Source: Holophagaceae bacterium | GTDB taxonomy: Bacteria; Acidobacteriota; Holophagae; Holophagales; Holophagaceae | Assembly (NCBI GenBank): GCA_003165415.1 | Contig: PLUC01000235.1 | Coordinates: 14,813 to 51,802, forward strand | Length of the DNA stretch: 36,990 nt | Reading direction: 5' to 3' | Shown here: positions 9,132 to 30,983 of the stretch, piece after piece | Layout of the letters: every line of letters starts with the position of its first letter | How positions within the stretch are numbered: position 1 is the stretch's first letter | The notes under the pieces: generated by a model | Database searches by the model: none | Seen by the model: only the letters and a program-made list of their open reading frames with translations | Told to the model about the DNA's origin: nothing | Made by a program: the position numbers and the translations under genes

Positions 9132-9135
9132 GAGC

Positions 9136-10377: not shown

Positions 10378-10401
10378 CATGGTTTCACCCCGGAGACAGT
10401 C

Positions 10402-12716: not shown

Positions 12717-12775
12717 TGATTGGCATTGCGTCCGCCTCCCCGGGAGTACATCCTTGACTTGTTAGTGGAGGCAGC

Positions 12776-14220: not shown

Positions 14221-14239
14221 TAATAGGTTCCTGGCAGAT

Positions 14240-15379
14240 TCAACGAACCAGGGCCCCGTGGGCTTCCTTGAGTTTTTCCATGATGGGAATGCCCTGCGGG
14301 CACTTGGTCTCGCAGGCCCCGCATTCCTGGCACTGGTCGGCGCCGTGGCCCTGGCTGGCGAAGAAGGTGTCGTACTGCCAGGCGGCCGCCTTCCAGGCGT
14401 TGAACATCGCGCCGGTGTTGTAGGCGGAAAACGTTTCCGGGATGGCCACGCCGCTGGGACAGGGGGCGCAGTAGCCGCAGGTGGTGCAGGGGACCCGCAC
14501 CCGGGCGGCGTAGATGGCGCGGACCTCCTCGATGCGGGCCAGGGTCCCGGCGTCCAGGCCGCCGGCCTGGGCCGCGTCGGCGCTGGCGAGGTTCTCCCGC
14601 AGTTGGTCCGCGGCGTTCATGCCGGACAGCGCCGTCACCACCTCCGGGTGGTTCCAGACCCAGCCCAGGGCCCAGGAGGCCGGGCTGCGCTCCGGGGCCC
14701 GGGCCCAGATGCGCTGGACGTCCTCCGGCTGGGCCGCGCCCAGGGTGCCGCCCCGCAGCGGCTCCATGGCGATGGTCCCGACGCCGCGGGCGGCGGCGTA
14801 GTGCAGGCCCTCGGTGCCGGCCTGGAACCCCTCGTCGATGAAGTTGTACTGGATCTGGCAGAACGCCCAGTCGTAGCCGTCGATGATGGTCTTGAAGACC
14901 CCGAGGGAATCGTGCACCGAGAAGCCCAGGTGGCGGATCCGGCCGTCGGCCAGGGCCCGCTCCATGGCCGGCAGGCCGCGGTGCTGCAGGGTGGTTTCCC
15001 AGCGGGCGGCGCTGAGGGCGTGCAGCAGGTAGAAGTCGATGTGGTCGGTGTCCAGCCGCTTGAGCTGCTCGTCCAGCAGCCGCTCCCAGTCGCTCTCCTG
15101 GTTCACCAGCCACACCGGCAGCTTGGTGGCCAGGCGCACCTGGTCCCGGTAGCCGTCCTTGAGCGCCCGGCCCACGAACGGCTCGCTCTCGCCACCGTGG
15201 TACGGGTAGGCGGTGTCCACGTAGTTCACCCCGGCGTCGATGGCCTGGCGCAGCAGGGCGCGGGCCGGCTCCTCGTCGATGCGCTTCGGGTCGCCGCCCA
15301 CCACCGGCAGGCGCATGCAGCCGAAGCCGAGCACGGAGACTTCGACCCCGGGAATGCGGGGAAACGTACGGTATTTCAT
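14240..15379 (-). CDS. Aldo/keto reductase with C-terminal 2x[4Fe-4S] ferredoxin domain
   Basis: 379 residues. An AKR barrel (about 1-290) has catalytic tyrosine in DTAYPYHGGES, lysine in LATKLPVW and histidine in YLLHAL. The tail has two cysteine clusters, CTTCGYCAPCPSG and CQECGACETKCPQG, spaced as in bacterial 8Fe ferredoxins. The enzyme is a cytoplasmic carbonyl oxidoreductase that may exchange electrons with ferredoxin-like carriers as well as NAD(P)H. The fused form is common in anaerobes. An AGAGGAT ribosome site precedes the ATG. The M20 gene is 13 bases upstream on the same strand, so the two may be an operon; the physiological substrate is unknown. Confidence 0.94.
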   Translation of the reverse strand: MKYRTFPRIPGVEVSVLGFGCMRLPVVGGDPKRIDEEPARALLRQAIDAGVNYVDTAYPYHGGESEPFVGRALKDGYRDQVRLATKLPVWLVNQESDWERLLDEQLKRLDTDHIDFYLLHALSAARWETTLQHRGLPAMERALADGRIRHLGFSVHDSLGVFKTIIDGYDWAFCQIQYNFIDEGFQAGTEGLHYAAARGVGTIAMEPLRGGTLGAAQPEDVQRIWARAPERSPASWALGWVWNHPEVVTALSGMNAADQLRENLASADAAQAGGLDAGTLARIEEVRAIYAARVRVPCTTCGYCAPCPSGVAIPETFSAYNTGAMFNAWKAAAWQYDTFFASQGHGADQCQECGACETKCPQGIPIMEKLKEAHGALVR

Positions 15380-15391
15380 CGGACCATCCTC

Positions 15392-16570
15392 TTACGCGAA
15401 TTCTACCGCCAGACGCTCGGCCGCGGCCAGGTTCACGGCTACCATGGCCCACAGCATGCCCTCGTCCACGTCGAACCGGGGGTTGTGGTTGGGGAAGCCG
15501 CTGCCGGTATTGAGGAACCAGTAGCAGCCGGGAACCCGCTCCAGGTAGTAGGCGAAATCCTCGGCGCCCATGCTGGGCCGGGTGAGCATCACCACCCGCC
15601 CCTCGCCCAGCGCCGCCCGGGCCGCTTCGGCGGCCACGGCCGTGGCCCGGGCGTCGTTCACCACCGGCGGATAGCCGTCATGCCACTGGTAGTCCAGCTT
15701 CAGCCCGTGCAGCCCGGCGATGCCCGCGGCGATGGCGCCGATGCGCGTGGACAGGATGGCGCGCAGGTCCGCGTGGATGCTCCGGGCCGTGCCCATGAAC
15801 TCGCAGCGTTCCGGAATGACGTTGAAGGTCTCCCCGCCGCGCACGCAGCACACCGATACCACCGCCGGCCGGGACTGGTCCAACTCCCGGGCGCGGAAGC
15901 TGTTCATGGCCAGGATGAATTCGGCCAGGGCGGAGATGGGGTCCGGGGTGGTGTGGGGCTGGGAGCCGTGCCCGCCGGAGCCGATGAAGGCGCCCTGGAA
16001 GCGGTCCGAGGCGGCCATCATCGGGCCGGGCATGAACCCGGCCTGGCCCGGCCCCAGTTCGCCGGCCAGGGTGCCCACGTGGCCGCCGAGGATGGCCGCG
16101 ACCCCCTCCAGCACCCCGGCCTCGATGAGCGTCCTGGCGCCGAAGCAGCCCTCCTCCCCGGCCTGGAACACCAGCCGGGCCCGGAACGGCAGCCGCCCCG
16201 CGGCCGCCTCCTCCGCCAGCAGGCCGGCCGCGCCCAGCAGGCAGGCGGTATGGGTGTCGTGGCCGCAGGCGTGCATCCGCCCGGGGAACTGGGAAGCGAA
16301 GGGCAGGCCGGTCAGTTCCGCCACCGGCAGGGCGTCCATGTCGGCGCGGATGGCCACCCGCGGGCCGCGGTCGCCCAGGTCCGCCCACATGCCGGAACCG
16401 GCCCGCACCGGCGCCAGACCCAGGCCGCGCAGGGCCGCCTCCACCATGGCGGCGGTCTCGGGCAGGTCCAGGCCGATCTCCGGAATGGCGTGGAGCGTCC
16501 TGCGCCACTGGATGACCCCGGGCAGGGTGGCCCGCACGCGCGGTTCAGGGAAAATCAGGGAAGCGCTCAT
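15392..16570 (-). CDS. M20-family amidohydrolase (hippurate hydrolase/IAA-amino acid hydrolase-like)
   Basis: A 392-residue cytoplasmic dinuclear metalloenzyme that cleaves N-acyl amino acids or related amides. Metal ligands appear in order: MHACGHDTHTA, QAGEEG, GGHVG and NHNPRFDVDE. A dimerisation (lid) domain lies between about 180 and 295, with GSGGHGSQPH. The N-terminal RRTLHAIPEIG is typical of the M20D subfamily. I start at the ATG at 16570 because GGAAAGA lies just upstream; an ATG at 16582 adds four residues. It is 13 bases from the AKR gene. It is one of three amide or peptide hydrolases in the window, but it is separate from the peptide-transport locus. Confidence 0.93.
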   Translation of the reverse strand: MSASLIFPEPRVRATLPGVIQWRRTLHAIPEIGLDLPETAAMVEAALRGLGLAPVRAGSGMWADLGDRGPRVAIRADMDALPVAELTGLPFASQFPGRMHACGHDTHTACLLGAAGLLAEEAAAGRLPFRARLVFQAGEEGCFGARTLIEAGVLEGVAAILGGHVGTLAGELGPGQAGFMPGPMMAASDRFQGAFIGSGGHGSQPHTTPDPISALAEFILAMNSFRARELDQSRPAVVSVCCVRGGETFNVIPERCEFMGTARSIHADLRAILSTRIGAIAAGIAGLHGLKLDYQWHDGYPPVVNDARATAVAAEAARAALGEGRVVMLTRPSMGAEDFAYYLERVPGCYWFLNTGSGFPNHNPRFDVDEGMLWAMVAVNLAAAERLAVEFA

Positions 16571-16673
16571 GGTTCTTTCCATTATGCGCCGGACCTATCC
16601 TACCTGGCCATTTTCGACGATGTTAACGTTATGCATCGCTTCTAGTGCCCCTCCACCTCGCCCCGGTGACCCC

Positions 16674-17753
16674 ATGCCCCCATCCAGCAAGCCCAGCCAC
16701 ACCGCCAGCCACTACGACCGGGAGCGCATCCTGGAGTTCGAGTTCGTCCGGGCCACGGAGAACGCGGCCCTGCAGGCCATCCACTGGTCCGGGCGGGGCG
16801 AGAAGGAGAAGGCCGACGCCGCGGCCTGCGCTGCCATCGCCGGCGTGTTCGACCAGCTGGACATCCGGGGCGAGGTGGTGATTGGCGAAGGGCTCAAGGA
16901 CAAGGCGCCGGGCATCTTCGTGGGCGAGCGGCTGGGTTCCTGGCGCCAGGGCGCGGCCCGGTTCGACCTGGCCATGGACCCCATCGACGGCACCGCCAAC
17001 GTCGCCAAGGGCTTGCCCAACAGCATCTCGGTGCTCGCGGCCGCCCAGGTGGCCAACGGCGCGGCCCACGCCATGCGCAACCTGCCGAGCTTCTTCAGCC
17101 ACAAGATCGCCTACGGCCCGGCGGTGAAACAGGCGCTGGAGGCCAAGGGCGACATCAACTTCCTGGACCTGCCGCTGGCCGAGGTCCTGGGGTTCGTGGC
17201 GGAAGCCCTGGGCAAGCGGGTGGGGGAGCTGGTGGTGGTCACCATGGACCGCCCGCGCCATGACGACATCATCCGCCAGGTGCGCGCGGTGGGTTCCGCC
17301 CTGCGCCTCATCTCCGACGGCGACATCACCGCCGCCGTGGCCCCTTCCCTGGCCCATTCCGGCGTCGACCTCTACGTGGGCATGGGCGGCTCCCCCGAAG
17401 GGGTGCTGGCGGCCGCGGCCCTGAAATGCCTGGGCGGCGACATCCAGTTGCGCATGTGGTTCGACCACGCCCGGCACCCCGGCCACCAGGCCGAAGTGGC
17501 CACCCTGGTGCCCCCGGAGGACCTCACCCGGGTGTTCCGGGTGGACGATCTGGTGGTGGGCGACAGCGCCCTGTTCTGCGCCACCGGCATCACCGACAGC
17601 ACGCTGCTGCCCGGGGTGAAGCTCATCGGCCACCGCGCCGAGACCCACTCCATCCTCATGCGCGCCCGCAGCGGCACCGTGCGCCACATCCAGGCCGTGC
17701 ACCAGCTGGACCGCAAGTCCACCCCGCTGCGGGAGTCCTTCCTGGAAGGTTAG
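16674..17753 (+). CDS. glpX: Class II fructose-1,6-bisphosphatase, GlpX type
   Basis: 359 residues. It hydrolyses fructose 1,6-bisphosphate to fructose 6-phosphate in gluconeogenesis. GlpX signatures are VRATENAALQA at the N-terminus, VIGEGLKDKAP and MDPIDGTANVAKG for metal and phosphate binding, GDITAAV, and VGMGGSPEGVLAAAALKC. The ATG at 16674 begins a short tail before the family N-terminus (RILEFEFVRATE). The 103-base gap upstream, shared with the divergent M20 gene, holds AT-rich sequence suited to promoters. It converges with the PilZ-pseudoreceiver gene, overlapping it by four bases. Confidence 0.96.
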   Translation: MPPSSKPSHTASHYDRERILEFEFVRATENAALQAIHWSGRGEKEKADAAACAAIAGVFDQLDIRGEVVIGEGLKDKAPGIFVGERLGSWRQGAARFDLAMDPIDGTANVAKGLPNSISVLAAAQVANGAAHAMRNLPSFFSHKIAYGPAVKQALEAKGDINFLDLPLAEVLGFVAEALGKRVGELVVVTMDRPRHDDIIRQVRAVGSALRLISDGDITAAVAPSLAHSGVDLYVGMGGSPEGVLAAAALKCLGGDIQLRMWFDHARHPGHQAEVATLVPPEDLTRVFRVDDLVVGDSALFCATGITDSTLLPGVKLIGHRAETHSILMRARSGTVRHIQAVHQLDRKSTPLRESFLEG

Positions 17754-19002: not shown

Positions 19003-20658
19003 ATGCCCGTCTACGTCATCGGCCACCGGAATCCCGACACCGATTCCATCTGCTCGGCCATCGGCTATGCCCACCTGCTCCGCCTGACCCACCTCCCGGA
19101 CGCCGTGGCCGCCTGCTGCGGCGAGGTCAACCCGCGCACCCAGTTCGTCCTCAACCGCGCAGGCCTGGAACTGCCGCGGCTGATCATGGACGTGCGGCCC
19201 ACCCTGGGCCAGCTCTGCCGGCGGGAGATCGTCAGCGCCCGGGAGGACGAGGCCTTCTTCGAGGTGTACCGCCGCATGCAGGCGCACCGGCTCCACGCCC
19301 TCCCGGTGCTGGACGCCGCGGGCCGGCTCCAGGGCATGCTCACATTCTCCCGGCTGCTGGAGCTGCTGCTGCCCGACCGGGGCGGCGACGCCAGCCCGAG
19401 GCTGGTGCAGACCAGCCTGGACCAGGTGTGCCGGGCCCTGGACGGCCGCTTCCAGCATGCCCTGGACACGGAGCGTTCCGAAGCCCTGTTCCTCAAGGTG
19501 GGGGCCATGAGTTCGGGCAAGTTCATCCCGCGGCTCCAGGACTTCCCCCCCGGGCAGTCCCTCATCGTCGTGGGCGACCGCCCCACCATCCACCGGCCCA
19601 CCATCGCCTACGGCGCCCGCTGCATGGTCATCACCGGCGGCGGCGACCTGGCCGAGGACCTGCTGGAGCAGGCCAAGGCCAACGGCGTGAGCGTCATCTC
19701 CAGCCCCTGGGACACCGCCACCACCACCCTGATGATCCGCGGCGCCAAGGGCATCGCCCCGGCCATCGACCGCAGCTTCCTGAAATACCGGGAGAACATG
19801 CTGGCCCGCTCGGTGCGCAAGGAAGTGCACGCCTCCAGCCAGGAGCTGTTCCCGGTGCTGCTGGAGAGCGGCAAGCTGCTGGGCGTGTTCTCCAAGGACG
19901 ACCTGGCCAGCCCCGAGCAGGTGCGCCTGGTGCTGGTGGACCACAACGAGCTGGCCCAGGCGGTGTGCGGCGCCGAGGAGGCGGAGATCCTGGAGGTGCT
20001 GGACCACCACCGGGTGGGCGGCGGCCTGATCTCCCGGGAGCCGATCCGGTTCCAGAACGACACGGTGGGCTCCACCTGCACCATGGTCACCCGCTGCTAC
20101 CGGCGGGAGGGCCTGGTGCCGCCCGCCGGCATCGGCGAGGCCCTGGCCGCGGGCATCATCTCCGACACCCTGAACCTCAGCTCGCCCACCACCACCCCGG
20201 TGGACCGGGACATGCTGCAGTGGCTGGGCGGCGCCTGCGGGTTCGACCCCGCCGCCTACGCCGAGGCGTTCTTCGCCGTGGGCTCGGTGCTGCAGCTCTG
20301 CACGCCCCGGGAGGCGCTGCGCATGGACTGCAAGGACTACACCGAAGGCCCCTGGCGCATGGCCGTGGCCCAGATCGAGGAGATGGGCTTCCAGCGCTTC
20401 CAGCAGCACCAGGAGGCCCTGGCCGCGGCCCTGGACGACCTGCTGCGCGAGCAGCAGCTGGATTTCGCCTGCCTGCTGGTGACCGACATCGCCCTGAACG
20501 ACAGCCTGCTGCTGGTGGCCGGCAACCCGCGGGTGATCGACACCATCGAGTATCCCCGCCTGGGCAGCCACCTGTTCCAGCTGGACGCCGTGGTCAGCCG
20601 CAAGAAGCAGCTGCTGCCGCACCTGGCGCGACACCTGGCGCGGCTGGAAAAGGACTAG
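19003..20658 (+). CDS. ppaC: Manganese-dependent inorganic pyrophosphatase with CBS-DRTGG regulatory insert
   Basis: Family II pyrophosphatase, 551 residues; hydrolyses PPi to phosphate. The DHH catalytic part is split. GHRNPDTDS at residues 7-15 supplies Mn ligands, and after the insert come VLVDHNE, LDHHRVGG, SDT and a DHHA2 domain to the end. Between them sit CBS1 (about 70-125), a DRTGG region (about 185-260) and CBS2 (about 265-310). This is the layout of pyrophosphatases regulated by adenine nucleotides. Clostridial and desulfobacterial enzymes have the same form. It converges on the prolidase gene with a four-base stop overlap. Start is ATG at 19003; an ATG at 18999 is out of frame. 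Confidence 0.96.
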   Translation: MPVYVIGHRNPDTDSICSAIGYAHLLRLTHLPDAVAACCGEVNPRTQFVLNRAGLELPRLIMDVRPTLGQLCRREIVSAREDEAFFEVYRRMQAHRLHALPVLDAAGRLQGMLTFSRLLELLLPDRGGDASPRLVQTSLDQVCRALDGRFQHALDTERSEALFLKVGAMSSGKFIPRLQDFPPGQSLIVVGDRPTIHRPTIAYGARCMVITGGGDLAEDLLEQAKANGVSVISSPWDTATTTLMIRGAKGIAPAIDRSFLKYRENMLARSVRKEVHASSQELFPVLLESGKLLGVFSKDDLASPEQVRLVLVDHNELAQAVCGAEEAEILEVLDHHRVGGGLISREPIRFQNDTVGSTCTMVTRCYRREGLVPPAGIGEALAAGIISDTLNLSSPTTTPVDRDMLQWLGGACGFDPAAYAEAFFAVGSVLQLCTPREALRMDCKDYTEGPWRMAVAQIEEMGFQRFQQHQEALAAALDDLLREQQLDFACLLVTDIALNDSLLLVAGNPRVIDTIEYPRLGSHLFQLDAVVSRKKQLLPHLARHLARLEKD

Positions 20659-21965
20659 GAAGGCAGATACTCCTGCGTGATGTTCCGGATCCCGCTCCCG
20701 GTCATCACCACGTTGTCCTCGAAGCGGATCCCGCCCAGGGGAGATAGTTCATCGATGAGCCTCCAGTCGAAGCGGCCGGCGTACGGGCCTTCCCGGAACT
20801 GCTGCAGAAGCATCGGGATGAAGTAGAGGCCCGGCTCCACCGTCAGCACATGCCCGGGCTCCAGGGTCCGGGTCAGGCGCAGGGACGGGTATTGCTCCGG
20901 CGGCGGCAGCAGGGCGCCGTCGGGCCCGGTGCTGTGGCCGGCCACGTCGTGGATGTTGAGGCCCAGGAAATGGCCCAGGCCGTGGGGCATGAACGGGCGG
21001 CTGAGGCCCAGGGCCAGGGCCTCCTCCGGCGCGGCCTTGAGGATGCCGGAACGGTGCAGCAGGCCGCACAGTTCCCGGTGGGCCAGCTGGTGCGCCTGGA
21101 GGAACGGCAGGCCCGGCTTCAGGGCGGCGCACACCGTCCGCTGCAGCTCCAGGATCCCCCCCATGAGGGACTGGAACCGGGGATCGCACCCGGGCGCGGC
21201 GGTGGTGCGGGTGATGTCCGAACCGTAGCCCCGCACCCGGGCGCCGCAGTCCAGCAGCAGCACCTTGCCGTCGCCGCGGCGGCGCTTGTTCCGGTAGTGC
21301 AGGATGGCGCCCTTGGGCTCCAGGGCCACGATGGAGGGGTAGGCCAGCTGGTGGTCCAGGGCGTCCACCGCCTGGACGAAGGCGTGGTGGATCGCCACCT
21401 CCGAACCGCCCGCCAGGAACGCCTCCCGGCTGGCCAGGTGGCCCCGGGCGCCCAGGGCGGTGGCCTCCTCCAGGGTGCCGATCTCGTAGGGGGTCTTGAA
21501 GCTCCGGCCCCAGTCCAGGCGGCTGAGGAGGCTGGCCGGGTTCGGCTGCAGGCCCGCGGCCTCGGCCCGGCCGGGCTCATCGCCGATATAGGCGGCCCCG
21601 GCGGGCCGGCCCGCCAGGTCCCAGACCGCGTCCGGGGTGGCCGCTTCCCGGAGCTCGAACAGGTCCGCCCAGAACGCGGCGTCTTCCATGGGCTCCTGCT
21701 CGCACCAGAAGTCCCGGGGCACATGGAGCGCCAGCACCGGCCTGCGGCCTGGCTCCAGGCGCAGCACGTGGTGGGGGCCCTCCAGCGGACAGTAGTGGCG
21801 GAAATGGGGCACCCCCTGGAAGGGGGCCTCGTGGTCGTCGGCGCAGTAGGTGAAGGGCACCCCGCTGGAGACCACCAGGGCCGGGAAGCCGGTGGCGGCC
21901 AGGGCCTGCTCCAGGCAGTCCAGGCGGACCCGGAGGTGGTCGGGGAACAGCGACCGCGGGTCCAT
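20655..21965 (-). CDS. pepQ: Xaa-Pro dipeptidase (prolidase), M24 family, PepQ-like
   Basis: A 436-residue cytoplasmic prolidase that cleaves dipeptides with C-terminal proline. The N-terminal half carries the PepQ-type pattern YCADDHEAPFQGVPHF and later PRDFWCEQEP. The catalytic pita-bread domain has the five metal ligands in DCGARVRGYGSDITRT, HGLGHFLGLNIHDVAGH, TVEPGLYF and GIRFEDNV. Its ATG overlaps the stop of the preceding small gene (TGATG), so it is the last gene of the DUF3798 ABC operon and translationally coupled to it. This is strong contextual evidence that the imported substrate is a peptide. Confidence 0.93.
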   Translation of the reverse strand: MDPRSLFPDHLRVRLDCLEQALAATGFPALVVSSGVPFTYCADDHEAPFQGVPHFRHYCPLEGPHHVLRLEPGRRPVLALHVPRDFWCEQEPMEDAAFWADLFELREAATPDAVWDLAGRPAGAAYIGDEPGRAEAAGLQPNPASLLSRLDWGRSFKTPYEIGTLEEATALGARGHLASREAFLAGGSEVAIHHAFVQAVDALDHQLAYPSIVALEPKGAILHYRNKRRRGDGKVLLLDCGARVRGYGSDITRTTAAPGCDPRFQSLMGGILELQRTVCAALKPGLPFLQAHQLAHRELCGLLHRSGILKAAPEEALALGLSRPFMPHGLGHFLGLNIHDVAGHSTGPDGALLPPPEQYPSLRLTRTLEPGHVLTVEPGLYFIPMLLQQFREGPYAGRFDWRLIDELSPLGGIRFEDNVVMTGSGIRNITQEYLPS

Positions 21966-22414
21966 CAGGGCTTGGGCGCTTCCGGCGCCGGGCTGTCCTG
22001 CTGCTGCATCTGCTCCACCGGCGTCTCCTCCGCCGGCGGCGCGGTGAACTTGCCGATCCAGTAGCGTCGCGGCGCGCCGCCCAGGATGGCCGGCACCGAC
22101 ACCAGCGCCGGGTCCAGGAAGGTGGGGACGCTGAAGCGCTGCTCCAGTTTCTGGTCGCCCGCCTCGATGGTGATGGTGTGCCGGGGTCCGCCCACCTGGA
22201 CCATGGTGCGCTCGGCGCGGCCCATGGACTCGGGCTCATGCCCGTCGATGCTCACGCTGACGCTGTCGGCGCAGCTGAACTCCTTCCCGTCCAGGGTCAC
22301 GGCGTTGGTGTCGATGAGCAGGGTGTGCCCCTTGCCGATGTAGAACAGGAAGGCCGACAGCGCCACCAGGCCCGCCAGGACGCAGCTCCGCTGGAACAGG
22401 CTGCGGGCGCTCAT
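21965..22414 (-). CDS. Small membrane-anchored protein of the ABC importer operon
   Basis: 149 residues. One N-terminal hydrophobic segment (SCVLAGLVALSAFLFYIG) is followed by about 120 residues outside the membrane, rich in beta-strand pattern, and a proline/glutamate-rich tail. I do not firmly recognise the family; it may be DUF6672-like, but I cannot confirm that. It overlaps the upstream permease by four bases (ATGA) and the downstream pepQ by one base, so it is an integral part of the operon. It could be an accessory subunit of the transporter. The periplasm-facing orientation is an inference from the lysine/arginine-flanked N-terminus. Confidence 0.8.
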   Translation of the reverse strand: MSARSLFQRSCVLAGLVALSAFLFYIGKGHTLLIDTNAVTLDGKEFSCADSVSVSIDGHEPESMGRAERTMVQVGGPRHTITIEAGDQKLEQRFSVPTFLDPALVSVPAILGGAPRRYWIGKFTAPPAEETPVEQMQQQDSPAPEAPKP

Positions 22415-23502
22415 GCGGCACCTCCGGCGCGCAGCGTGGCCCGGGCGTCGTTCTCCCGGGTCACCCGCTTCCACTCGTAGAGCACCAGCGCCAGGGCGAT
22501 CACCCCGTAGCTCACGAACTGCCGGAAGTACTCGCCCAGCATGCCCGAGCCGATGAGGTTCTTGCCGGCCATGGGCGAGACCAGGAACAGCAGGTGGAAC
22601 AGGATCACCCCGACGATGACGTTGGGGATGGAGGCCTTGGTCACCGAGGCGCCGCCGATGAGCAGGGCGGCGATGGAGAACATGCCGATCTGCTCGTGGG
22701 AGCTGGTGGTATTGATGGTGCCCAGGTTCTGCAGGAAGATCACCTGGCCGATACCGGCCAGCACCGTGGAGATCATGATCGCCAGGATCCGGGTCCGCTC
22801 CACCGGGATGCCCGCGGCCCCCGACACCGCCCGGTCCTGGCCCACCGCGCGCATGTCCTGGCCCAGCTTGGTGCGGCGGAACCAGATCAGCAGCCCAGCC
22901 CCGGCGGCGATGAGCAGGTAGCTGAACACCGGTATCTTCAGGCCGGCCACGTGCAGCGGGATCAGGTTGTCGAAGCTCTGGCGCACGCCGTCCAGCCCCA
23001 CCACGTTGCGGATGCCGTAGCCCCGGGAGAGCAGCAGCTCCGGATTGAAGATGGGGATGATGCTGCCCATGGCGTAGAGCACGATCATCATGTAGATGCC
23101 GTTCATGAAGAACGCCAGGATGAAGCCGGTGACCATCTCCCGGCCCTTGGCCCGGTTCATGATCGAGCCGCACACCCAGCCCAGGCAGACCGAGATGGGC
23201 AGCGAGATGATCATGGCCAGCAGCAGGCCCGGGATGCCGACGATGCCCCAGTCGGAGATGAAGATCAACCCCAGCTGCCCGGCCATGGCCCCCAGCACCA
23301 TGCCGAAGTTGAGGCCCATGCCGGCCATGATCGGCAGCAACAGCGCCAGCACCAGGAAGGTGTCGCGCCCCAGCCGCATCAGGATCTCCTGGGCCAGGAA
23401 GCTCGCCGGCAGCTTGGCCACCGGGATGGCGAAGGCGATGAGCAGCAGGATCAGGATGGCCACCGCATTGTCGATGAAGAACACGCGCAGTCTGGAGCTC
23501 AT
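22411..23502 (-). CDS. ABC importer permease, second (BPD_transp_2, BMP/ribose type)
   Basis: 363 residues with about nine to ten membrane helices. Family features are the glycine-rich early motif MAGMGLNFGMVLGAMAGQLG and, before the last helices, the conserved ALLIGGASVTKASIPNVIVG. The RTKLGQDMRAVGQD segment fits the cytoplasmic coupling loop of RbsC/BMP-type permeases. It overlaps both neighbours by four bases (ATGA), so the transporter has two different permeases that probably form a heterodimer. It is part of the operon DUF3798-ATPase-permease-permease-small protein-pepQ. Confidence 0.93.
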   Translation of the reverse strand: MSSRLRVFFIDNAVAILILLLIAFAIPVAKLPASFLAQEILMRLGRDTFLVLALLLPIMAGMGLNFGMVLGAMAGQLGLIFISDWGIVGIPGLLLAMIISLPISVCLGWVCGSIMNRAKGREMVTGFILAFFMNGIYMMIVLYAMGSIIPIFNPELLLSRGYGIRNVVGLDGVRQSFDNLIPLHVAGLKIPVFSYLLIAAGAGLLIWFRRTKLGQDMRAVGQDRAVSGAAGIPVERTRILAIMISTVLAGIGQVIFLQNLGTINTTSSHEQIGMFSIAALLIGGASVTKASIPNVIVGVILFHLLFLVSPMAGKNLIGSGMLGEYFRQFVSYGVIALALVLYEWKRVTRENDARATLRAGGAA

Positions 23503-24542
23503 TTGGCCACCTTCATGGTGCGGGTCAGGGCATACAGGATCATGCCGTTGGAGACGATCACCCGGATCACGTCGGACATGTCGATCTTGAGGACCGCGTT
23601 GAACACCTCCGGGGTCATGGTCAGGATGCCCTGGTAGAGCAGGGTGCCGATGAACACGTTGGCCAGGGTCGCCTTGTTCACCGTGGCGCCGCCGATGAGG
23701 ATCGCCGCCACCGCCGGGAAGGCCATGTAGAGTGGCCCGTCATAGAGCTGGATGAAGCCGAAGCTCTGCTGGAACACCACGATGCCCAGGGCGCCGAGCA
23801 TGGTGGACATCATCACGCTGATGATGCGCATGCGGTTGATGCTGATGCCGGAGGCCTTGGCGTAGGTGGCGTTCAGCCCCACCGCCGTCACCGCCGTGCC
23901 CAGCTTGAGGTGGAAGAACACCCACACCAGCACCGCCACCAGCAGGAACACCAGCACCGCCCCGGTGGGGAACTTGAAGTTCTCGCCCAGATGGAAGGCC
24001 AGGAAGTCGTCCAGGATGTGCCGCCAGAAGCCCTCCACCGAGATGGTGGTGCGCAGGCCTGAGCCGCCGTAGCCCCAGATCATGGTCGGGCTCTTGAAGG
24101 GCAGCACCACCCAGGCGATGCACATGGCCATGACCGAGGAGAAGCCCACGTAGGTGGCGATCATCATCTCGCCGCCCTTGACCCGGTTCAGCAGCTTGCC
24201 GTAGCCGAACCCGAACAGCGCGCCGAAGACCTGCCCCACCACGATGGCGATGAGGAACCCGGCCAGGCCCACCCGCCCGGATTCGATGCTGATGGTGGCG
24301 CCCAGCAGCCCGGCCAGCACCCCCAGCGACAGGCCGAAGTTGAGGCCGCAGCCGGACTGGATCATGGGCACCATGGCCAGCACCATGATGCCGTTCATGC
24401 CCACCCGGATCAGCACGTCGGACAGGGAGGACGGCAGGTTGACCCCCACCATCGGCGCGGCGCTGAACAGCAGCAGCAGGAACACGGTGATGAGCAGCCT
24501 GGGCAGCCCGAAGTCGGCGGTGAAACGTTTCACGGCTTCCAT
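23499..24542 (-). CDS. ABC importer permease, first (BPD_transp_2, BMP/ribose type)
   Basis: 347 residues with about nine to ten helices. It carries the same motifs as its partner: IQSGCGLNFGLSLGVLAGLLG near the front, KLGTAVTAVGLNATYAKASG as the coupling loop, and AAILIGGATVNKATLANVFIG near the end. The shared motifs suggest the two permeases descend from an old duplication. It starts two bases after the ATPase stop and overlaps the next permease by four bases. Together with the ATPase and the DUF3798 protein it makes a complete importer. Confidence 0.93.
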   Translation of the reverse strand: MEAVKRFTADFGLPRLLITVFLLLLFSAAPMVGVNLPSSLSDVLIRVGMNGIMVLAMVPMIQSGCGLNFGLSLGVLAGLLGATISIESGRVGLAGFLIAIVVGQVFGALFGFGYGKLLNRVKGGEMMIATYVGFSSVMAMCIAWVVLPFKSPTMIWGYGGSGLRTTISVEGFWRHILDDFLAFHLGENFKFPTGAVLVFLLVAVLVWVFFHLKLGTAVTAVGLNATYAKASGISINRMRIISVMMSTMLGALGIVVFQQSFGFIQLYDGPLYMAFPAVAAILIGGATVNKATLANVFIGTLLYQGILTMTPEVFNAVLKIDMSDVIRVIVSNGMILYALTRTMKVAK

Positions 24543-24544
24543 GG

Positions 24545-26176
24545 CTAGCTCTCCCTCCCGGCCGCGGCTGTCGCTTCGTCCCGGCCGGCGCCGGCCATGA
24601 GGATGCCGAACTGCTCAAGCGGCGCCGTGTGCGGCAGGATCCCCTCGATGCGGCCCTCGTAGACGATGGCGATGCGGTCGCAGATGGAGCGAAGTTCCTC
24701 CAGTTCACTGGAGACCATGACGATGGTGGTGCCGTACTCCTGGTTGTACCGCTTCAGGGTCTCCAGCACCACGTGCTTGGCCCCGATGTCGATGCCCCGG
24801 GTCGGCTCGGACACGAACAGCAGCTCCGGCCGCAGGGCGAACGCCTTGGCCAGGCAGACCTTCTGCTGGTTGCCGCCGGACAGCGCCCCGGCCCGCTGCT
24901 TGGGCCCGGTGCACTTGATCTCCAGCAGCCGGATGTACTCCTCCGCCAGCTGGACCATGGCCGCGTCCGAGCGCCACTTGAGCAGGCCGCCCAGCAGCGG
25001 CTTCACGTACTTGTCCTGCACCTGCATGGCGGTGAAGGCGATGTTCCAGTCGATGCCCTCGTCCAGCAGCAGGCCCACCCCGCGCCGGTCCTCGGACACG
25101 AAGGCCATGCTCCGGTCCAGGGCCGCCCGGGGCGTGTTCAGGGGCAGCGGCACGCCGTTCAGCAGCACCGTGCCGCCGGCCGGAGCCAGGCCCATGATGC
25201 CGTTGGCGATGCCCAGCTTGCCCTGGCCGGCCAGGCCGCCGATGCCCAGGATCTCGCCGCGCTGGACCGCCAGGTTCACCTGGCGCACCGTCTCCCCGGG
25301 CATGTCCACCCAGAGCCCGTCCACCGCCAGGATGGTGTCGTCGGCGCCGCCATGGACCTGGCCGCGGGCCGCGGATTCCGCGTCCACCCGGGCCTGGGCC
25401 TCGGCGGAGCGCCCCACCATGAGCGCCGCGATCGCCTTGATGCTGGTGCCCGCCGCCGGAAAGTCGTTGATCTTGTGCCCGTCCCGCAGCACCACCACCC
25501 GGTCGCACAGCTCCACCACCTCGCGCAGCCGGTGGGAGATGAAGATGATGGCGATGCCTTCCCGGGCCAGCAGGCGCAGGGTGCCCAGCAGCACCTCGGC
25601 CTCGCTTTCGGTGAGCACGGCGGTGGGCTCGTCCAGGACGATCAGCTTGACATGCTCCCGGCACAGCTCCCGGGCGATCTCGGTGAACTGCTTGTGCCCC
25701 ACCGGCATCTCCCTGATGAGCATGTCCGGATCCAGCGCCACCCCCAGCTTGGCGATAGCCTTGCGCGAGCGGGCGTCCATGGCCGCCCGGTCCAGGGTGT
25801 TGATGCGCGGCCCGAAGATGTCCACCAGGAACGAGCCCTGCACCGACTCCCGGTTGAGCAGGATGTTCTCGGTGGTGGTGAACCCGGGGATGAGGGAGAA
25901 CTCCTGGTGCACCATGCCGATGCCGGCATCCAGGGCGTCGAAGGAATTGCGGAACGCCACGTCCTGGCCGGCGAACCGGATGGTGCCTTCGAAGCCGCCG
26001 GTCTCGGCGATTTCCGGCATGGCGAAGAGGATCTTCATCAGGGTGGACTTGCCCGCCCCGTTCTCCCCCACCAGCCCTACGATCTCCCCCGGCGCCACAT
26101 CGAAAGAGACGTCGGCCAGCACGCGGTTGGCGAAGAACGTCTTGCCGATGCCGCGCAAGCTCAGAATGGGTTCCAC
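24545..26176 (-). CDS. RbsA-like double ATPase of the importer
   Basis: 543 residues, two nucleotide-binding domains in tandem. Domain 1 has Walker A GENGAGKS (37-44), a divergent signature MPVGHKQ and Walker B LIVLDEPTAVL. Domain 2 has a degenerate Walker A (GLAGQGKLG, no GKS/T), a canonical signature ALSGGNQQKV, and Walker B LLFVSEPTRGID, where serine replaces the usual aspartate before the catalytic glutamate. The layout of one good and one degraded nucleotide site is usual in sugar/BMP-type importers. It lies 60 bases after the DUF3798 gene and two bases before the first permease. Confidence 0.94.
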   Translation of the reverse strand: MEPILSLRGIGKTFFANRVLADVSFDVAPGEIVGLVGENGAGKSTLMKILFAMPEIAETGGFEGTIRFAGQDVAFRNSFDALDAGIGMVHQEFSLIPGFTTTENILLNRESVQGSFLVDIFGPRINTLDRAAMDARSRKAIAKLGVALDPDMLIREMPVGHKQFTEIARELCREHVKLIVLDEPTAVLTESEAEVLLGTLRLLAREGIAIIFISHRLREVVELCDRVVVLRDGHKINDFPAAGTSIKAIAALMVGRSAEAQARVDAESAARGQVHGGADDTILAVDGLWVDMPGETVRQVNLAVQRGEILGIGGLAGQGKLGIANGIMGLAPAGGTVLLNGVPLPLNTPRAALDRSMAFVSEDRRGVGLLLDEGIDWNIAFTAMQVQDKYVKPLLGGLLKWRSDAAMVQLAEEYIRLLEIKCTGPKQRAGALSGGNQQKVCLAKAFALRPELLFVSEPTRGIDIGAKHVVLETLKRYNQEYGTTIVMVSSELEELRSICDRIAIVYEGRIEGILPHTAPLEQFGILMAGAGRDEATAAAGRES

Positions 26177-26236
26177 TGGATTGGCCTTTCGCTGGAAAGA
26201 GGCGGCGGCCCCGGGGGCCGCCGCCGGTAGGTCGGT

Positions 26237-27457
26237 CTACGCCTTCTTCTTCAGCCCGGAGCTGATCCGCAGGTACTTCTCGGGCACCACCACGTCGGCG
26301 GAGTGGATGTAGCCCCTGCCGAAGATGTAGGTGTCCTGGAGCAGCATGACGAAGTTGGGCACCCGGACGCCGGTGGTGCCGTCGATGTAGACGGACCCGC
26401 CCCACTTCACGTTGGGGGTGTACTTGGCGAAGGCCTTGAAGATGTCCTGCATGTTGGTCATCTTGGACTTGCCCTCGATGACGTTCATGGCGTGCTGGAC
26501 CAGGCCCACGGTGTCACTGTACTGGAAGGAATAGGACCAGGTGCCCAGACGCCCGGCGGCGCCCTTGGCGATCACCACCTGCTCGATCTTCTTCATGATC
26601 GCGGGAAAGTTGCCCTGCTCGGCCTTGAGGTCGATGCCCAGCGCGCCGGGGAACCCCAGCAGCGGCGAGGGCAGGCTGGCTTCCACCATGACGCCGCCGT
26701 ACTGCACGATCTGGCGGATGAGGGGCTCGGTGTGGGCGTCGTTGGTGGCGTAGAAGGAGGTGTCCTTGCCGTACTTCTTCACCCACTTGGGCACGTTCTC
26801 CAGCAGGTACTGCTGGGCGCCCACCACGCCCACGTCACTGAGCGGGTCCGGGGCGGTCTCGAACACGAACTTGACGCCCAGGTCCTTGCAGGCCTGTTCC
26901 ATGATCATCCGCCGGCGGGTGAGCGGCTCGACGCTCATGTGCCGGGGGAACGAGATGTGCACGAAGGTCTTGCAGCCCAGCTGCTTGGAGGCCCAGATGA
27001 TCCGGTAGCCAGCCGAGACGAAATCGTTGCGCATGATCAGGTCGGCGACCTTGCTGATGACCAGGGGATCCTCGTAGGGCACCGCGCACAGCAGCTTGAT
27101 GTCGGGCCGCATTTCGCGGATCCGCCGGAACCCCTCGGTGGTGCCCGGCACCGCCTGGTTCATGATGATGGCCTTCATGAGCGGATCGTTGGCCAGGGAC
27201 ACCAGCTGGGAGATGGTGGTCTCCTGCTCCGCGTTGAAGTTGTTGGGGAAGGTCAGGTGCTGGATCATGCCCCCGTTCTTCACGTCCCCGTATTCCTTGA
27301 TCATGGCTTCCGCGGCGCGGACCTCGTCCTCGCTCTGGCTCACCGTGCCCGTGACGATGCCGACGTGGTACGGTGCCGCGGCCTGGGCCAGACCGCCGGG
27401 GGCGGCGCAGCACAGGACCAGCGCGGCGCGCGCCAGGGCCTTGCGAATGCTCAACAT
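26237..27457 (-). CDS. DUF3798 periplasmic substrate-binding-like protein
   Basis: 406 residues with a type I signal peptide (about 1-26, ending AQA before APYHVGIV). The mature protein matches DUF3798 (periplasmic-binding-like fold) by YHVGIVTGTVSQSEDE, VHISFPRHMS, FYATNDAHTEPLI and GFPGALGIDL. These positions lie where ligand is bound in ribose/BMP-type binding proteins. No lipobox is present. A strong ribosome site (AAGGAGG) precedes the ATG at 27457. It is the first gene of the importer operon, downstream of a sigma-54 promoter candidate at 27511-27526. Its ligand is unknown; its neighbours point to a peptide. Confidence 0.92.
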   Translation of the reverse strand: MLSIRKALARAALVLCCAAPGGLAQAAAPYHVGIVTGTVSQSEDEVRAAEAMIKEYGDVKNGGMIQHLTFPNNFNAEQETTISQLVSLANDPLMKAIIMNQAVPGTTEGFRRIREMRPDIKLLCAVPYEDPLVISKVADLIMRNDFVSAGYRIIWASKQLGCKTFVHISFPRHMSVEPLTRRRMIMEQACKDLGVKFVFETAPDPLSDVGVVGAQQYLLENVPKWVKKYGKDTSFYATNDAHTEPLIRQIVQYGGVMVEASLPSPLLGFPGALGIDLKAEQGNFPAIMKKIEQVVIAKGAAGRLGTWSYSFQYSDTVGLVQHAMNVIEGKSKMTNMQDIFKAFAKYTPNVKWGGSVYIDGTTGVRVPNFVMLLQDTYIFGRGYIHSADVVVPEKYLRISSGLKKKA

Positions 27458-27510
27458 GGGAGCCTCCTTGAGAGTTCCACCGAAGGATGGATAGGGATGA
27501 GTTGGATCAG

Positions 27511-27526
27511 AGCAATAGTAATGCCA
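27511..27526 (-). promoter_or_regulatory. Sigma-54 promoter candidate for the DUF3798 ABC operon
   Basis: On the minus strand: TGGCAT, five bases (TACTA), TTGCT. The invariant GG (27525-27524) and GC (27513-27512) have the exact -24/-12 spacing. Expected transcription start is near 27500, about 43 bases before the DUF3798 ATG. A sigma-54 activator gene lies 3.5 kb upstream on the same strand. The region behind it (27530-27570) contains an imperfect dyad CCAG-N5-CTCC/GGAG-N5-CTGG that could be an activator site. Confidence 0.72.
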
Positions 27527-27580
27527 AGCGCGCCAGAAGCCAGCGGATCTCCTCCGGGAGCGGTCCTGGCCCAAAAGGCA

Positions 27581-28810
27581 TTAATTAGACATGAAGCGTT
27601 GTTTCCGTTGCAGGGTGTCCATGACGTCCTGCTCGAAGCTGCCCAGCCGTTTCAGCTCATGGTCGCGCACCAGGATCTCGCCCCGGGCCAGGACCGCGTC
27701 GATCTCCAGGTTCCGGTCCAGCAGCACCAGGTCCGCGTCCGCCCCGGCCCGGATCCGGCCCTTGGCCGGTAGCCTGAGGTAGGCCGCGGGGGTGGAGGTG
27801 ATTACCTGGAGGGCCACCTCCAGGGGCACCCCGTACTCTTGCACCCCGCGCCGTACCTCGGCGAACAGGGTGTCCACCTTGCCCACCCCCAGGCCCGCGT
27901 ATTCCCGGGCCGCGTTGAACCGGGGCAGGCTGCCCTGGCCGTCGGAGCTGAAGCTGATGCTGCCCGCGGCCACGCCGGCCTGGAGCAGCTGGGCCAGCAG
28001 GGCGCCGCAGGAGCGGCCCTCCACCGGCTCCGTGCTGGTGGTCAGGTCGATGAAGCGGCCCCGGCCGCCGTCCTGGCGGGCGTAGGCGCTGCCCGCCTCC
28101 AGCAGCCTCTGGTTGCGGTTGATGTGGGTGGGGACGAAGTGCTTGGCCGGGATCTCGGTCTCCCGGAGGATCCGTTCGATCAGGGTCAGCATGCGCTCGC
28201 CGTCGCCCAGGTGGACATTGACGACGCCGGCCTTGCCCGAGAGCATGCCCCCGACCCGGGCATCGGCGGCGATGCGGGCCACTTCGTCGAAGGTGGGCTG
28301 GGACGAGCGGTGGTCGCTCAGGGCGATCTCCCCGACCCCGATCACCTTGTCGATGAGGATCAGGTCGTCCTGCACCGAACCCGTGAGGGTGCGCACCGGC
28401 ACCCGATAGGAGCCGGTGTAGATGTAGGCGGTGACCCCCTCCGCTTCCAGCCCCCGGGCCTTGGCCAGCAGGCTGGCCATGGTCCGGGTGGTGCTGTCGG
28501 TGCCCAGGCAGCCGATCACCGTGGTCACCCCGGCGGTGGTGAGGTCGCTGAGCATGAGCTCCGGGGTCCGGGAGGCGTAGCCCCCTTCCCCGCCGCCGCC
28601 CAGCAGGTGCACGTGGCCGTCGATGAAGCCCGGCACCAGCAGCTTGCCCCGCCCGTCGATGAGTTCCAGCTCGGCCCGGCCCAGGTCCAGGGCGCCCGGG
28701 TCCAGGCAGGCGACCAAGCCGCCGGCGATGAGCACGTCCATGGGCCCCAGGGGTTCGGGCGCATAGACTTCCGCGCCTTGGATCAGCTTCAGGATGGCTG
28801 GACCGCTCAT
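27581..28810 (-). CDS. iadA: Isoaspartyl dipeptidase (beta-aspartyl peptidase)
   Basis: A 409-residue cytoplasmic amidohydrolase that cleaves beta-Asp-X dipeptides. These come from damaged proteins and, in some bacteria, from cyanophycin (beta-Asp-Arg). Metal ligands are in IDGHVHL. Substrate contacts known from E. coli IadA are kept: GGGGEGG, TGSYRVP, SDHRS, THINRN and SSDGQGS. The bridging lysine of the E. coli enzyme (GVKCAISDHR) is replaced in GVGEIALSDHR, where glutamate takes its place with one inserted residue. ATG at 28810 with GGAG just upstream. It lies between the sigma-54 activator and the importer operon and has its own sigma-54 promoter candidate. Confidence 0.94.
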   Translation of the reverse strand: MSGPAILKLIQGAEVYAPEPLGPMDVLIAGGLVACLDPGALDLGRAELELIDGRGKLLVPGFIDGHVHLLGGGGEGGYASRTPELMLSDLTTAGVTTVIGCLGTDSTTRTMASLLAKARGLEAEGVTAYIYTGSYRVPVRTLTGSVQDDLILIDKVIGVGEIALSDHRSSQPTFDEVARIAADARVGGMLSGKAGVVNVHLGDGERMLTLIERILRETEIPAKHFVPTHINRNQRLLEAGSAYARQDGGRGRFIDLTTSTEPVEGRSCGALLAQLLQAGVAAGSISFSSDGQGSLPRFNAAREYAGLGVGKVDTLFAEVRRGVQEYGVPLEVALQVITSTPAAYLRLPAKGRIRAGADADLVLLDRNLEIDAVLARGEILVRDHELKRLGSFEQDVMDTLQRKQRFMSN

Positions 28811-28835
28811 GGGGACTCCGTGGATCCCTGGGTTT

Positions 28836-28851
28836 AGCAAGAACGGGGCCA
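28836..28851 (-). promoter_or_regulatory. Sigma-54 promoter candidate for iadA
   Basis: On the minus strand: TGGCCC, five bases (CGTTC), TTGCT. GG (28850-28849) and GC (28838-28837) have exact -24/-12 spacing. Transcription would start near 28825, about 15 bases before the iadA ATG, leaving room for the GGAG at 28816-28819. It is the second such element in 1.4 kb. Confidence 0.7.
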
Positions 28852-28928
28852 TGATGATTGAGTTATTGAATCAGGCCCACCGCCGGAAGGTCCGGAGAGG
28901 TTGGATCACGGCCCATGGGGATAAGGGG

Positions 28929-30983
28929 TTATAAAACAACCCGTTTACTATCCCGATATCCCATTGCCTCGTCCCACTGATCGGTGACCAGGTGTCCCTT
29001 CCCGGTGAGGGTCGAGCCCTTCCGCCCGGTTCCGGACCGGGTGAGCCCCAGGGCCTCGGAGGTGGCCAGGAGGCCCCGGATCACCCCCTCGGTGAGCTGG
29101 GGCCGGTCGGCGGCGGCCAGCTCGGCCAGGTGGCGCCGGCCGATGCTGCCGAACTCCCGGAACCGGCCCAGCATCCAGACCAGGTCCGCGCCCAGCACCT
29201 CCTGGATCAGCCCCCCGTCCCCGGCGGCCGCCGGCTGCAGCAGGTACTCCGGCAGGTGCTCCATCTCCACCCGCCTGCCCTCCTCCCAGGTGCTGATGAG
29301 GAACTCCACCACGTTCATCAGCTGGCGGATGTTGCCAGGCCAGGCGTAGCCGCAGAGGTGGTCGAAGGTCTCCGGGGTCATGATGGCCAGGGGCCTGGTT
29401 TGCCGGCCGTGGCTGAAGCGGCGGATGAAGCGCTCGATGAGCAGCGGGATGTCCTCCCGGCGCTCGCGCAGGCTGGGCATGCGCAGCGGCACCACACTTA
29501 GCCGGTAGAACAGGTCCTCCCGGAAGCGCCCCTGCTTCACCTCAAGGTTCAGATCCTTGTTGGTGGCGGCGATCACCCGCACGTCCACCGGGACCAGCTT
29601 GCGCCCGCCCACCGGCCGCACCTGGCGCTCCTGCAGCACCCGCAGCAGGCGCACCTGGAACTCCAGCGGGGCGTCGCCGATCTCGTCCAGGAACAGGGTG
29701 CCGCCATGGGCCTCCTCCACCAGGCCCCGGCGCCCGCCCTTGCGCGCCCCGGTGAAGGCCCCCTCCTCGTAGCCGAACAGCTCGCTCTCCAGCAGTCCCA
29801 TGGGAAAGGCCGCGAAGTTCACCGGCACGAATGGCCCCTGCCGGCGCTTGGAGGCGTTGTGGATGGCCTGGGCGAACAGCTCCTTCCCGGTGCCGGTCTC
29901 GCCCTGGATCAGGATGGTGGAATCGCTCTGGGCCACCCGCTGGGCATAGCCTAGCACCCGGTCCATCTGCGGGCTCTTCGACAGGATGTCGTGGAAGGTG
30001 TAGCGGGCCTCGTGCTCGGACTTGCGGGCCTTGCGGCGCAGCTCGTGCTCCAGGGTCTGGATGGTGTGGCTGGTCTCGAACACGTAGAGGTGGCCGGTGA
30101 CCGTCTCGCCCTGCTGTACCGGCCGGGCCCACACCACCATCTCCTGGCCGCCCAGGGTGAGCACCACACTGGATTCCGGGGGCTCCGGCGGCAGCTCCGG
30201 CACCAGCTCCCCCAGGAGCCGGTTGGTCATGGCTTCCGCCGGCCTGCGCAGCACCGTCGCAATGGTCTGGTTGCCGAGGATGATCCTGCCGGCCAGGTCC
30301 GTGTAGAGGATGCCGTTGGGGGCGTAGTCCGCCATCACCTGCAGGATGTCGCGCATGTTCGCGACCCGTTTCCCGGCCCGGTCGATCTCCCGCAGCAGCC
30401 GGGTGATCTCCCGCAGGTGCTGGGACGAGATGGAATCCCCCAGCTGCTCCATCAGGCCCAGCCGCTGGACCAGCTCGACGATGGTGGTGATGTCCGCCAG
30501 GCGCGAGCCGATGTCGATCACCCGTTCCACGCAATCCGGCACCAGGGTCGGCTCGCCGGGGGTGATGGCGATCCCGAGCGGCGGGTAGGACGGAATCCCC
30601 GGATAGTAGGGGTGGTAGACCAGGTGGTCCAGGCCGACCCGCATCAGGTGTTCCATGGCCGAGCGGGTGCTGGCTTCGTAGTCGTTGACCAGCAGCACCT
30701 CCGTGCCGTCGGGCAGGGCCAGCAGGTCCTGGATGCGGGTGTAGTCGATGGCCCGCCGGGCCAGGATGCAGTCCATGCCCGCCCGGATCATGGCGGCCAC
30801 CTCGGGCCGGGTCTTTACCTGCTCCCCGGAGAGCACCGCCACCACCTCCCCGGGCGCGAAATCCAGCCGGTCCTCCAGGCAGTAGCGCTCCACCGCGACC
30901 GTGTCGTGGAAGAAGCGCCGCACATGGGCCACGAGGACATCCCCGGCCAGCTTCCCGATGCTCAGCACCACGACCTTTTTCAT
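28929..30983 (-). CDS. Sigma-54-dependent transcriptional activator with unusual sensor and DNA-binding ends
   Basis: 684 residues. Residues 1-200 form a sensor domain I do not recognise ([20 protein letters not shown]). Residues about 205-300 form a PAS-like domain. Residues about 330-560 form the AAA+ domain, with Walker A GETGTGKE (361-368), the sigma-54 contact loop GAFTGA (408-413), Walker [11 protein letters not shown], and [11 protein letters not shown]. The last 110 residues are not a Fis-type helix-turn-helix; they end in a winged-helix-like pattern ([29 protein letters not shown]). It lies upstream of iadA and the importer operon, each with a sigma-54 promoter candidate, so it is their likely activator. 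I start at the ATG at 30983 rather than at 31154. Confidence 0.93.

Follow-up and report, generated by a model that had tools for sequence, protein, structure and literature searches.

A putative import and cleavage locus for isoaspartyl dipeptides built on a DUF3798 transporter in a Holophagaceae genome

What does an importer with a DUF3798 binding protein carry when it stands between the genes of two dipeptidases? The question is raised by a stretch of 36,990 nucleotides (hereafter the window; positions 14,813 to 51,802 of contig PLUC01000235.1, assembly GCA_003165415.1) from a Holophagaceae bacterium of the Acidobacteriota. Eight minus-strand genes run here from 30983 to 20655: a sigma-54 activator, iadA, DUF3798, an RbsA-like ATPase, two PF02653 (BPD_transp_2) permeases, DUF6672 and pepQ. 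We propose, at a probability of roughly one half, that the locus, controlled through sigma-54, is a unit that imports and cleaves beta-aspartyl (isoaspartyl) dipeptides. In such a unit a beta-aspartyl dipeptide would be captured by the DUF3798 protein, a periplasmic binding protein of type I, and imported by the ATPase and the two permeases with the help of the membrane-anchored DUF6672 protein. Cytoplasmic IadA would then split beta-Asp-X, PepQ would handle X-Pro peptides taken up alongside, and the activator, probably responding to a ligand at its N-terminal or PAS region, would drive two -24/-12 promoters, one for iadA and one for the importer. The gene families, their order and coupling, the promoter cores, the predicted fold and the repeated linkage in relatives are directly established, and the argument below starts from the last of these.

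Peptidases beside DUF3798 cassettes

A scan of genome_contigs gave at least 554 DUF3798 relatives, of which 80 loci (cited here by L numbers) were kept. A DUF3798 tree of 129 rows, built by a quick method under LG+G4, places the window in a clade of seven rows with an SH-aLRT value of 100, the other members being L023 from Candidatus Accumulibacter, L024, L143 and L144 from Synergistota, L026 from Spirochaetota and L025 from Myxococcota. An isoaspartyl dipeptidase is linked to four of the six clade cassettes with readable flanks: three carry mutually distant IadAs and one an unrelated IaaA. In the window, IadA is encoded upstream of the DUF3798 cassette and PepQ at its end; in L024 (the same place as L145) IadA comes directly after DUF6672, and in L171, whose cassette shares a contig of genome G449 with L144, it follows DUF6672 by 29 nt. 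The contig ends within the DUF3798 gene of L171 (67% identity over the part that remains), and the locus was counted in the clade because of its identities to the window in the ATPase (73%), permease 2 (74%) and DUF6672 (50%), against 62-67%, 57-65% and 27-39%, respectively, for four cassettes of other clades; permease 1, at 63%, is uninformative. The fourth case, L023, has an RpiR regulator and an IaaA-type peptidase 343 nt upstream, an assignment resting on PF01112 (383 bits) with the NCBIfam beta-aspartyl-peptidase score of 430 under its cut-off of 567, and further upstream a dipeptide-epimerase-like enzyme (265 bits, under the cut-off of 500) and a DcuC-type carrier.

The linkage was also approached from the side of the peptidase. 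Across 185 Synergistota genomes 89 IadA matches were listed, and 88 of them were located on 86 stretches covering about 6 kb on each side where the contig allows, some being shortened by contig ends. Only two of these 88 places, L145 (= L024) and L171, have any part of a DUF3798 cassette, and both belong to the window's clade. That clade has three genomes in Synergistota, for which we estimate a chance expectation of about 0.01 such neighbours (genomes of 2-3 Mb carrying about one IadA each); L024 was known before the count, and L171 was found through an amidohydrolase end seen earlier. The 86 stretches thereby strengthen the link between clade and IadA, and they weaken the link to the regulator that is considered below. 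Identities among the three IadAs (window, L024 and L171) are 39-43%, and each enzyme is nearer to an IadA without a cassette (55% to L178; 48% and 49% to L179), so they were probably recruited to DUF3798 cassettes separately. In L144, as a side observation, the DUF3798 gene is followed by genes for two secreted proteins as long as 886 and 912 aa, which match the Zn-carboxypeptidase M14 family at 46 and 44 bits.

Outside the clade, DUF3798 genes have neighbours among other peptidase families. An M24 peptidase lies within 500 bp of a cassette gene in the Synergistota loci L054, L088, L094, L147, L149, L152 and L158, and beside DUF3798 also in L175, L176 and L177, the order in L176 being an OCD-type gene, DUF3798, M24 and M20 (PF01546). 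At least three M24 lineages are involved (the L088 type, that of L149 and L158, and that of L176, which is 47-50% identical to the L088 type), and the M24 neighbours of other DUF3798 genes are 25-28% identical to the window's PepQ over part of the length. In 26 hand-picked Synergistota genomes at least 11 of 84 M24 matches, including a fragment in G353, lie within 1.3 kb of DUF3798 among the matches listed, seven of these genomes having been chosen in the knowledge that M24 stands beside DUF3798. The remaining 19 give at least 4 of 60 among the matches listed, where we estimate about 0.3 to be expected; distances were measured to the best DUF3798 rows, with weaker copies missed. Many Synergistota loci carry none of the searched peptidases, e.g., L148, L150, L151, L153-L157, L159, L160 and L162. 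Because the 12 queries of the neighbour search were partly drawn from genes seen beside DUF3798, near matches were favoured in it. With the window's PepQ and IadA as sole queries, the 80 loci gave three matches, two within 600 bp of a cassette gene and one at 1006 bp, in a search whose near zone amounted to 108 kb of 1.19 Mb. PepQ as a general partner of DUF3798 was rejected: its type was seen only beside the window cassette, and the other M24 peptidases compared are distant.

Two arrangements among these loci may be described in their own right. On one strand of L149 (G362:C1:1565000-1580000, 1210-7099) follow an M55 peptidase resembling D-aminopeptidases (PF04951, 314 bits), DUF3798, M24, a class V aminotransferase and a second DUF3798, which is perhaps a second candidate peptide unit, for D-amino-acid peptides. 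In L147, L152 and L177, genes for an Orn/Lys/Arg decarboxylase and an arginase-family (agmatinase-like) enzyme lie near paired DUF3798 genes, with M24 between the pair.

It is from these neighbours that the main rival explanation arises, namely a broader small-peptide importer for Xaa-Pro, D-amino-acid and ordinary di- and tripeptides, whose peptidases differ by lineage and for which IadA is one of several enzymes. The pairing of IadA with PepQ in the window agrees with it, as do the M24, M55 (L149) and M20 (L176) genes adjoining Synergistota cassettes and the M24 counts in the 26 genomes. Within the window's clade, on the other hand, the recurrent neighbours are isoaspartyl dipeptidases, drawn from two unrelated families, and the counts are tempered by the seven genomes known beforehand, by the lower yield of the other 19 and by the many Synergistota loci that have no searched peptidase. 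We hold the broader importer to be unlikely, if the least so of the alternatives.

The preliminary description of this DNA, made from its letters alone, had suggested a peptide ligand and a survey of DUF3798 neighbourhoods for iadA, pepQ and sigma-54 activators. The suggestion holds for the window's clade, through the four cassettes of six and with M24, M20 and M55 genes beside other Synergistota DUF3798 genes, and it fails as a family-wide rule, in that none of the 61 Spirochaetota loci has a searched peptidase within 500 bp. The survey likewise found iadA recurring in the clade, the PepQ type only in the window and the activator on none of the Synergistota IadA stretches. A lack of recurrent association with peptidases, which that description had named as telling against itself, was not what emerged, because isoaspartyl dipeptidases recur in the clade and M24, M20 and M55 peptidases stand beside some Synergistota DUF3798 genes.

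The binding protein, its importer family and candidate ligands

The DUF3798 protein has PF12683 as its sole Pfam match at E up to 0.01, and the BMP nucleoside-binding family PF02608 is unmatched at the same threshold. Its AlphaFold model (mean pLDDT 89.4) has a type I periplasmic binding fold, with 3qi7 as the best match in the Protein Data Bank (PDB; E 9.9e-27; TM 0.88, normalised to target length; 22-23% identity where the structures match) and also the only PDB sequence that the protein matches. After 3qi7, the 50 structural matches listed include binders of sugars, of branched amino acids (LIV-type) and of urea. A structure alignment covered the window and 41 of the 80 loci, L062 and L093 having been excluded for their stop codons. 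V126, R152, V176, S261 and N325 are specific to the window's clade, with mostly E, L/T, Y, D and R elsewhere (7 versus 21 rows). Judged by topology only, these residues would lie near strand ends facing the cleft, and the possession of such residues by the clade is consistent with a changed ligand. A published compilation of solute-binding signatures includes PF12683, according to the accessible part of that article (PMC9602780). Papers that name DUF3798 list it, in their accessible parts, merely as a domain without a function. A text search returned no description of DUF3798, DUF6672 or a sigma-54-controlled isoaspartyl-dipeptide importer in the article portions covered, most subscription papers and preprints lying outside the library searched.

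From the kinship of the ATPase and permeases alone one might expect an importer of a sugar or nucleoside, the peptidases being adjacent by chance or through a shared regulator. The best full-length NCBIfam models for the ATPase are indeed of xylose, GguA and ribose (RbsA) types, all below their own cut-offs, the DUF3798 model resembles sugar-binding proteins among others once 3qi7 is set aside, and L143 has a divergent mannonate dehydratase (UxuA). This expectation is opposed by an operon that holds neither sugar kinase nor nucleosidase, by the isoaspartyl dipeptidase in four of the six readable clade cassettes and by a binding protein that matches PF12683 and not the BMP family, and we consider it improbable. 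Slightly more improbable still would be an importer of a free amino acid, a polyamine or a related small amine, with the peptidases cutting peptides that enter otherwise. The type I binders of branched amino acids and urea among the fold matches speak for such a substrate, as do the decarboxylase and arginase-family genes near DUF3798 in L147, L152 and L177. In L147 and L152, however, those genes are 1-3.5 kb away and it is the peptidase that adjoins, and the isoaspartyl dipeptidases IadA and IaaA act on dipeptides rather than free amino acids, as stated in the accessible part of PMC10206079.

The importer order of binding protein, ATPase, permease, permease and DUF6672 is present in the window and recurs in relatives. 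Among the 84 loci clustered (the 80, three own-genome stretches and the window), the binding protein was found in 83, the ATPase in 69, the permeases in 65 and a called DUF6672 in 46. The shortfall is in part due to contig ends (e.g., L026, L038 and L041) and to short genes missed by the caller, which for the relatives was a custom codon-usage script rather than a standard gene finder; the DUF6672 of L024 was found by tblastn and that of the window by Pfam, neither as a called gene. The small anchored protein of the preliminary description is this DUF6672 protein, and its AlphaFold model (mean pLDDT 92.9) bears out the anchor, with an N-terminal helix at residues 3-27 followed by a beta domain for which the PDB gave no match at E up to 0.001.

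The 80 kept loci comprise 61 from Spirochaetota, 11 from Synergistota, four from Thermotogota, one each from Pseudomonadota, Myxococcota and Caldisericota, and one unassigned. DUF3798 is present in at least 156 of the 185 Synergistota genomes; in the phylum of L026's genome, a search at a strict E of 1e-150 matched 69 of 392 genomes. Elsewhere it is sporadic: one of 297 genomes in a sample of the window's own phylum (the own genome itself), three of 61 in its family, one of 249 in the family of L023's genome and two of 195 in the phylum of L025's genome, one of them a weak fragment. We read this sporadic presence, from the distribution among genomes, as probable horizontal transfer. The window's own genome, a metagenome-assembled genome of 4.84 Mb in 273 contigs and 94.19% complete, holds four DUF3798 genes, of which the three outside the window (L005, L006 and L007, on C187, C192 and C194) branch elsewhere in the tree; one of these has a cassette of its own and two are without cassette genes on the fetched stretch.

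A wider proposal may be put forward tentatively, and with less confidence than that for the window. The whole family of DUF3798, RbsA-type ATPase, BPD_transp_2 permeases and DUF6672 could form a second class of ABC peptide importers, one that evolved on the type I fold of sugar and nucleoside binders independently of Dpp/Opp and in which DUF6672 would be an accessory subunit of a new kind. Its lineages would be specialised on different peptides, isoaspartyl dipeptides in the window's clade, and exchanged between phyla.

Promoters, regulator and layout of the locus

Exact matches to the motif TGGC-N7-TTGC occur four times on the two strands of the window, against 2.15 expected under a first-order model, and two of the four lie on the coding strand in the intergenic regions before iadA and DUF3798 (Table 1). 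None of 20000 simulations with local composition had cores in both regions, and the 16 other gene starts checked in the window have no exact core within 150 nt. A longer promoter pattern, YTGGCAYNNNNNNTTGCW, which has the wrong spacing, matched neither core and was set aside. The activator has no Pfam match to HTH_8. Its N-terminal part, used as a query over the collected loci, found one relative besides itself, a regulator adjoining IadA in the spirochaete G336 (L173) and 40% identical to the window activator over 529 aa. Together, the AAA+ activator and the -24/-12 cores support a sigma-54-dependent operon, for which activation by this particular regulator is predicted. The sigma-54 control claimed at the outset has gained two exact promoter cores, and the gene order and coupling claimed with it are borne out by Pfam and NCBIfam profile searches of the window proteins and by overlaps read from the sequence. 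ATGA overlaps join permease 1 to permease 2 and permease 2 to DUF6672, and a TGATG overlap joins DUF6672 to pepQ, so that the chain described for the last permease, small protein and prolidase starts already at the first permease; the gap between ATPase and permease 1 is 2 nt.

Table 1. Features of the locus, with positions counted within the window
Feature	Position	Strand	Evidence and remarks
Sigma-54-dependent activator	28929..30983	-	PF00158 Sigma54_activat 233 bits; N-terminal domain, PAS-like region, AAA+
Sigma-54 -24/-12 core TGGC-N7-TTGC, 5' of iadA	28837..28851	-	Exact match
iadA, isoaspartyl dipeptidase	27581..28810	-	TIGR01975 beta-aspartyl-peptidase 491 bits, cut-off 331; ATG 28810 chosen from sequence
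Sigma-54 -24/-12 core TGGC-N7-TTGC, about 55 nt before the DUF3798 ATG	27512..27526	-	Exact match
DUF3798 periplasmic binding protein, N-terminal signal-like segment	26237..27457	-	PF12683 405 bits, cut-off 24.6; type I fold, best PDB match 3qi7
Strong GC-rich hairpin between DUF3798 and ATPase genes, then UCUUU	26177..26240	-	-33.5 kcal/mol, z -3.5
RbsA-like duplicated ABC ATPase	24545..26176	-	PF00005 ABC_tran, two stretches, 143 bits
Permease 1	23499..24542	-	PF02653 (BPD_transp_2) 67 bits
Permease 2	22411..23502	-	PF02653 (BPD_transp_2) 65 bits; ATGA overlap with permease 1
DUF6672 membrane-anchored small protein, recurrent fifth importer part	21965..22414	-	PF20377 98 bits
pepQ, Xaa-Pro dipeptidase	20655..21965	-	NF010133 411 bits, cut-off 339; PF00557 and PF21216

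The starts of DUF3798 (ATG 27457) and iadA were preferred to those of longer open reading frames, that of iadA because the first sigma-54 core falls inside the longer frame. The hairpin between the DUF3798 and ATPase genes is possibly an attenuator or a stabiliser of the mRNA, and is of a sort that would allow the binding protein to be made in excess. Scans of the window for Rfam families and tRNAs gave no match. The GC content of the eight genes, 0.65-0.72, fits that of the window (0.68), and the locus is flanked by a DHH/CBS/DRTGG diphosphatase gene convergent to pepQ and by rex upstream of the activator. In the window's IadA a Glu (GVGEIALSDHRS) occupies the position at which the IadAs of L024 and L171 carry Lys, a lysine that in E. 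coli IadA we take to be a carboxylated metal bridge; the window enzyme is possibly a Glu-bridged variant.

The proposal weighed and compared with known systems

Several observations count against an isoaspartyl-dipeptide unit under sigma-54 control. Within the clade, the L143 cassette is without the searched enzymes (its UxuA is divergent, and that genome's IadA is on another contig), the L025 cassette has no isoaspartyl dipeptidase and an S41 peptidase upstream, L026 is truncated by the end of its contig, and L144 (G449:C26:8500-28400, 10577-17711) is a lone binding protein beside the M14-like secreted proteins. Beyond it stand the Spirochaetota loci with none of the searched peptidases nearby, and the 50 structural matches listed include no peptide-binding transport protein, the nearest with known ligands binding sugars, branched amino acids and urea. 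An exact sigma-54 core is absent upstream of DUF3798 in all eight other loci checked, and sigma-54 control as a trait of the DUF3798 family was rejected on that ground. Since none of the 86 Synergistota IadA stretches carries a sigma-54 activator, and the activator's N-terminal domain was matched in only one of 185 Synergistota genomes (at 26% identity and away from IadA), the pairing of regulator and IadA rests on the window and L173; the regulator was rejected as an IadA marker in Synergistota on the same results. The genome's contamination is 7.38%, the set of clade cassettes is small, and linkage is not function. Peptide binding by the DUF3798 protein is what we infer from that linkage, and the transport direction, the activator's signal and the role of DUF6672 are likewise parts of the proposal.

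If the proposal for the window and its family is true, it would assign a large importer family together with its DUF6672 partner, a family found in most Synergistota genomes searched and common in spirochaetes, which supply 61 of the 80 loci retained, and its ligand class could be tested with synthetic dipeptides. It would also provide an uptake route for isoaspartyl dipeptides that stem from cyanophycin or damaged protein, and an example of peptides being imported by way of a fold familiar from sugar and nucleoside binders.

Cyanophycin as a home-made source, which the preliminary description would have allowed, is disfavoured. The cyanophycinase model TIGR02069 has no match in the window's own genome (94% complete) and matched one of the nine genomes searched, G336, so degradation of cyanophycin by the host itself was rejected and scavenged dipeptides appear likelier. 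In G336 the matching gene belongs to L173 (G336:C17:9000-28900, 2-11592), where a symporter, IadA, the activator, the cyanophycinase (157 bits, cut-off 126.6), an OppA/DppA-like binding protein, two permease-like and two ATPase-like genes follow one another, the binding protein having been assigned by models under their own cut-offs and the last four genes by reading. L173 is probably a cyanophycin scavenging locus, and the same spirochaete has an unlinked DUF3798 cassette, L028. In this single comparison the window keeps regulator and IadA and has the DUF3798 importer in place of the Opp/Dpp-like one.

Loci with iadA beside a transporter scavenge cyanophycin, according to the accessible part of PMC10206079, which follows Ben Hania et al. 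(2017) and describes IadA and IaaA as unrelated, promiscuous isoaspartyl dipeptidases. With such cyanophycin utilisation loci the window shares an iadA beside a transporter for scavenging, a role that in the window is predicted; it differs in lacking a cyanophycinase gene and in having PepQ and a DUF3798 importer.

Dpp and Opp are ABC peptide importers with a binding protein of the PF00496 type. They have in common with the function proposed here that short peptides are taken up and then cut inside the cell, whereas the window's binding protein is of the type I fold (PF12683) and not of the DppA/OppA kind, and is accompanied by an RbsA-like duplicated ATPase, BPD_transp_2 permeases and DUF6672. 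The RbsABC and BMP-type importers of sugars and nucleosides (PnrA, BmpD) do share the RbsA-like ATPase, the PF02653 permeases and the type I binding fold; the window departs from them in its binding-protein family, PF12683 only, and in an operon without sugar or nucleoside enzymes. Closest by structure is PDB 3qi7, a DUF3798 protein of Clostridioides difficile entered as a "putative transcriptional regulator," which belongs to the same family as the window's binding protein but is only 22-23% identical to it.

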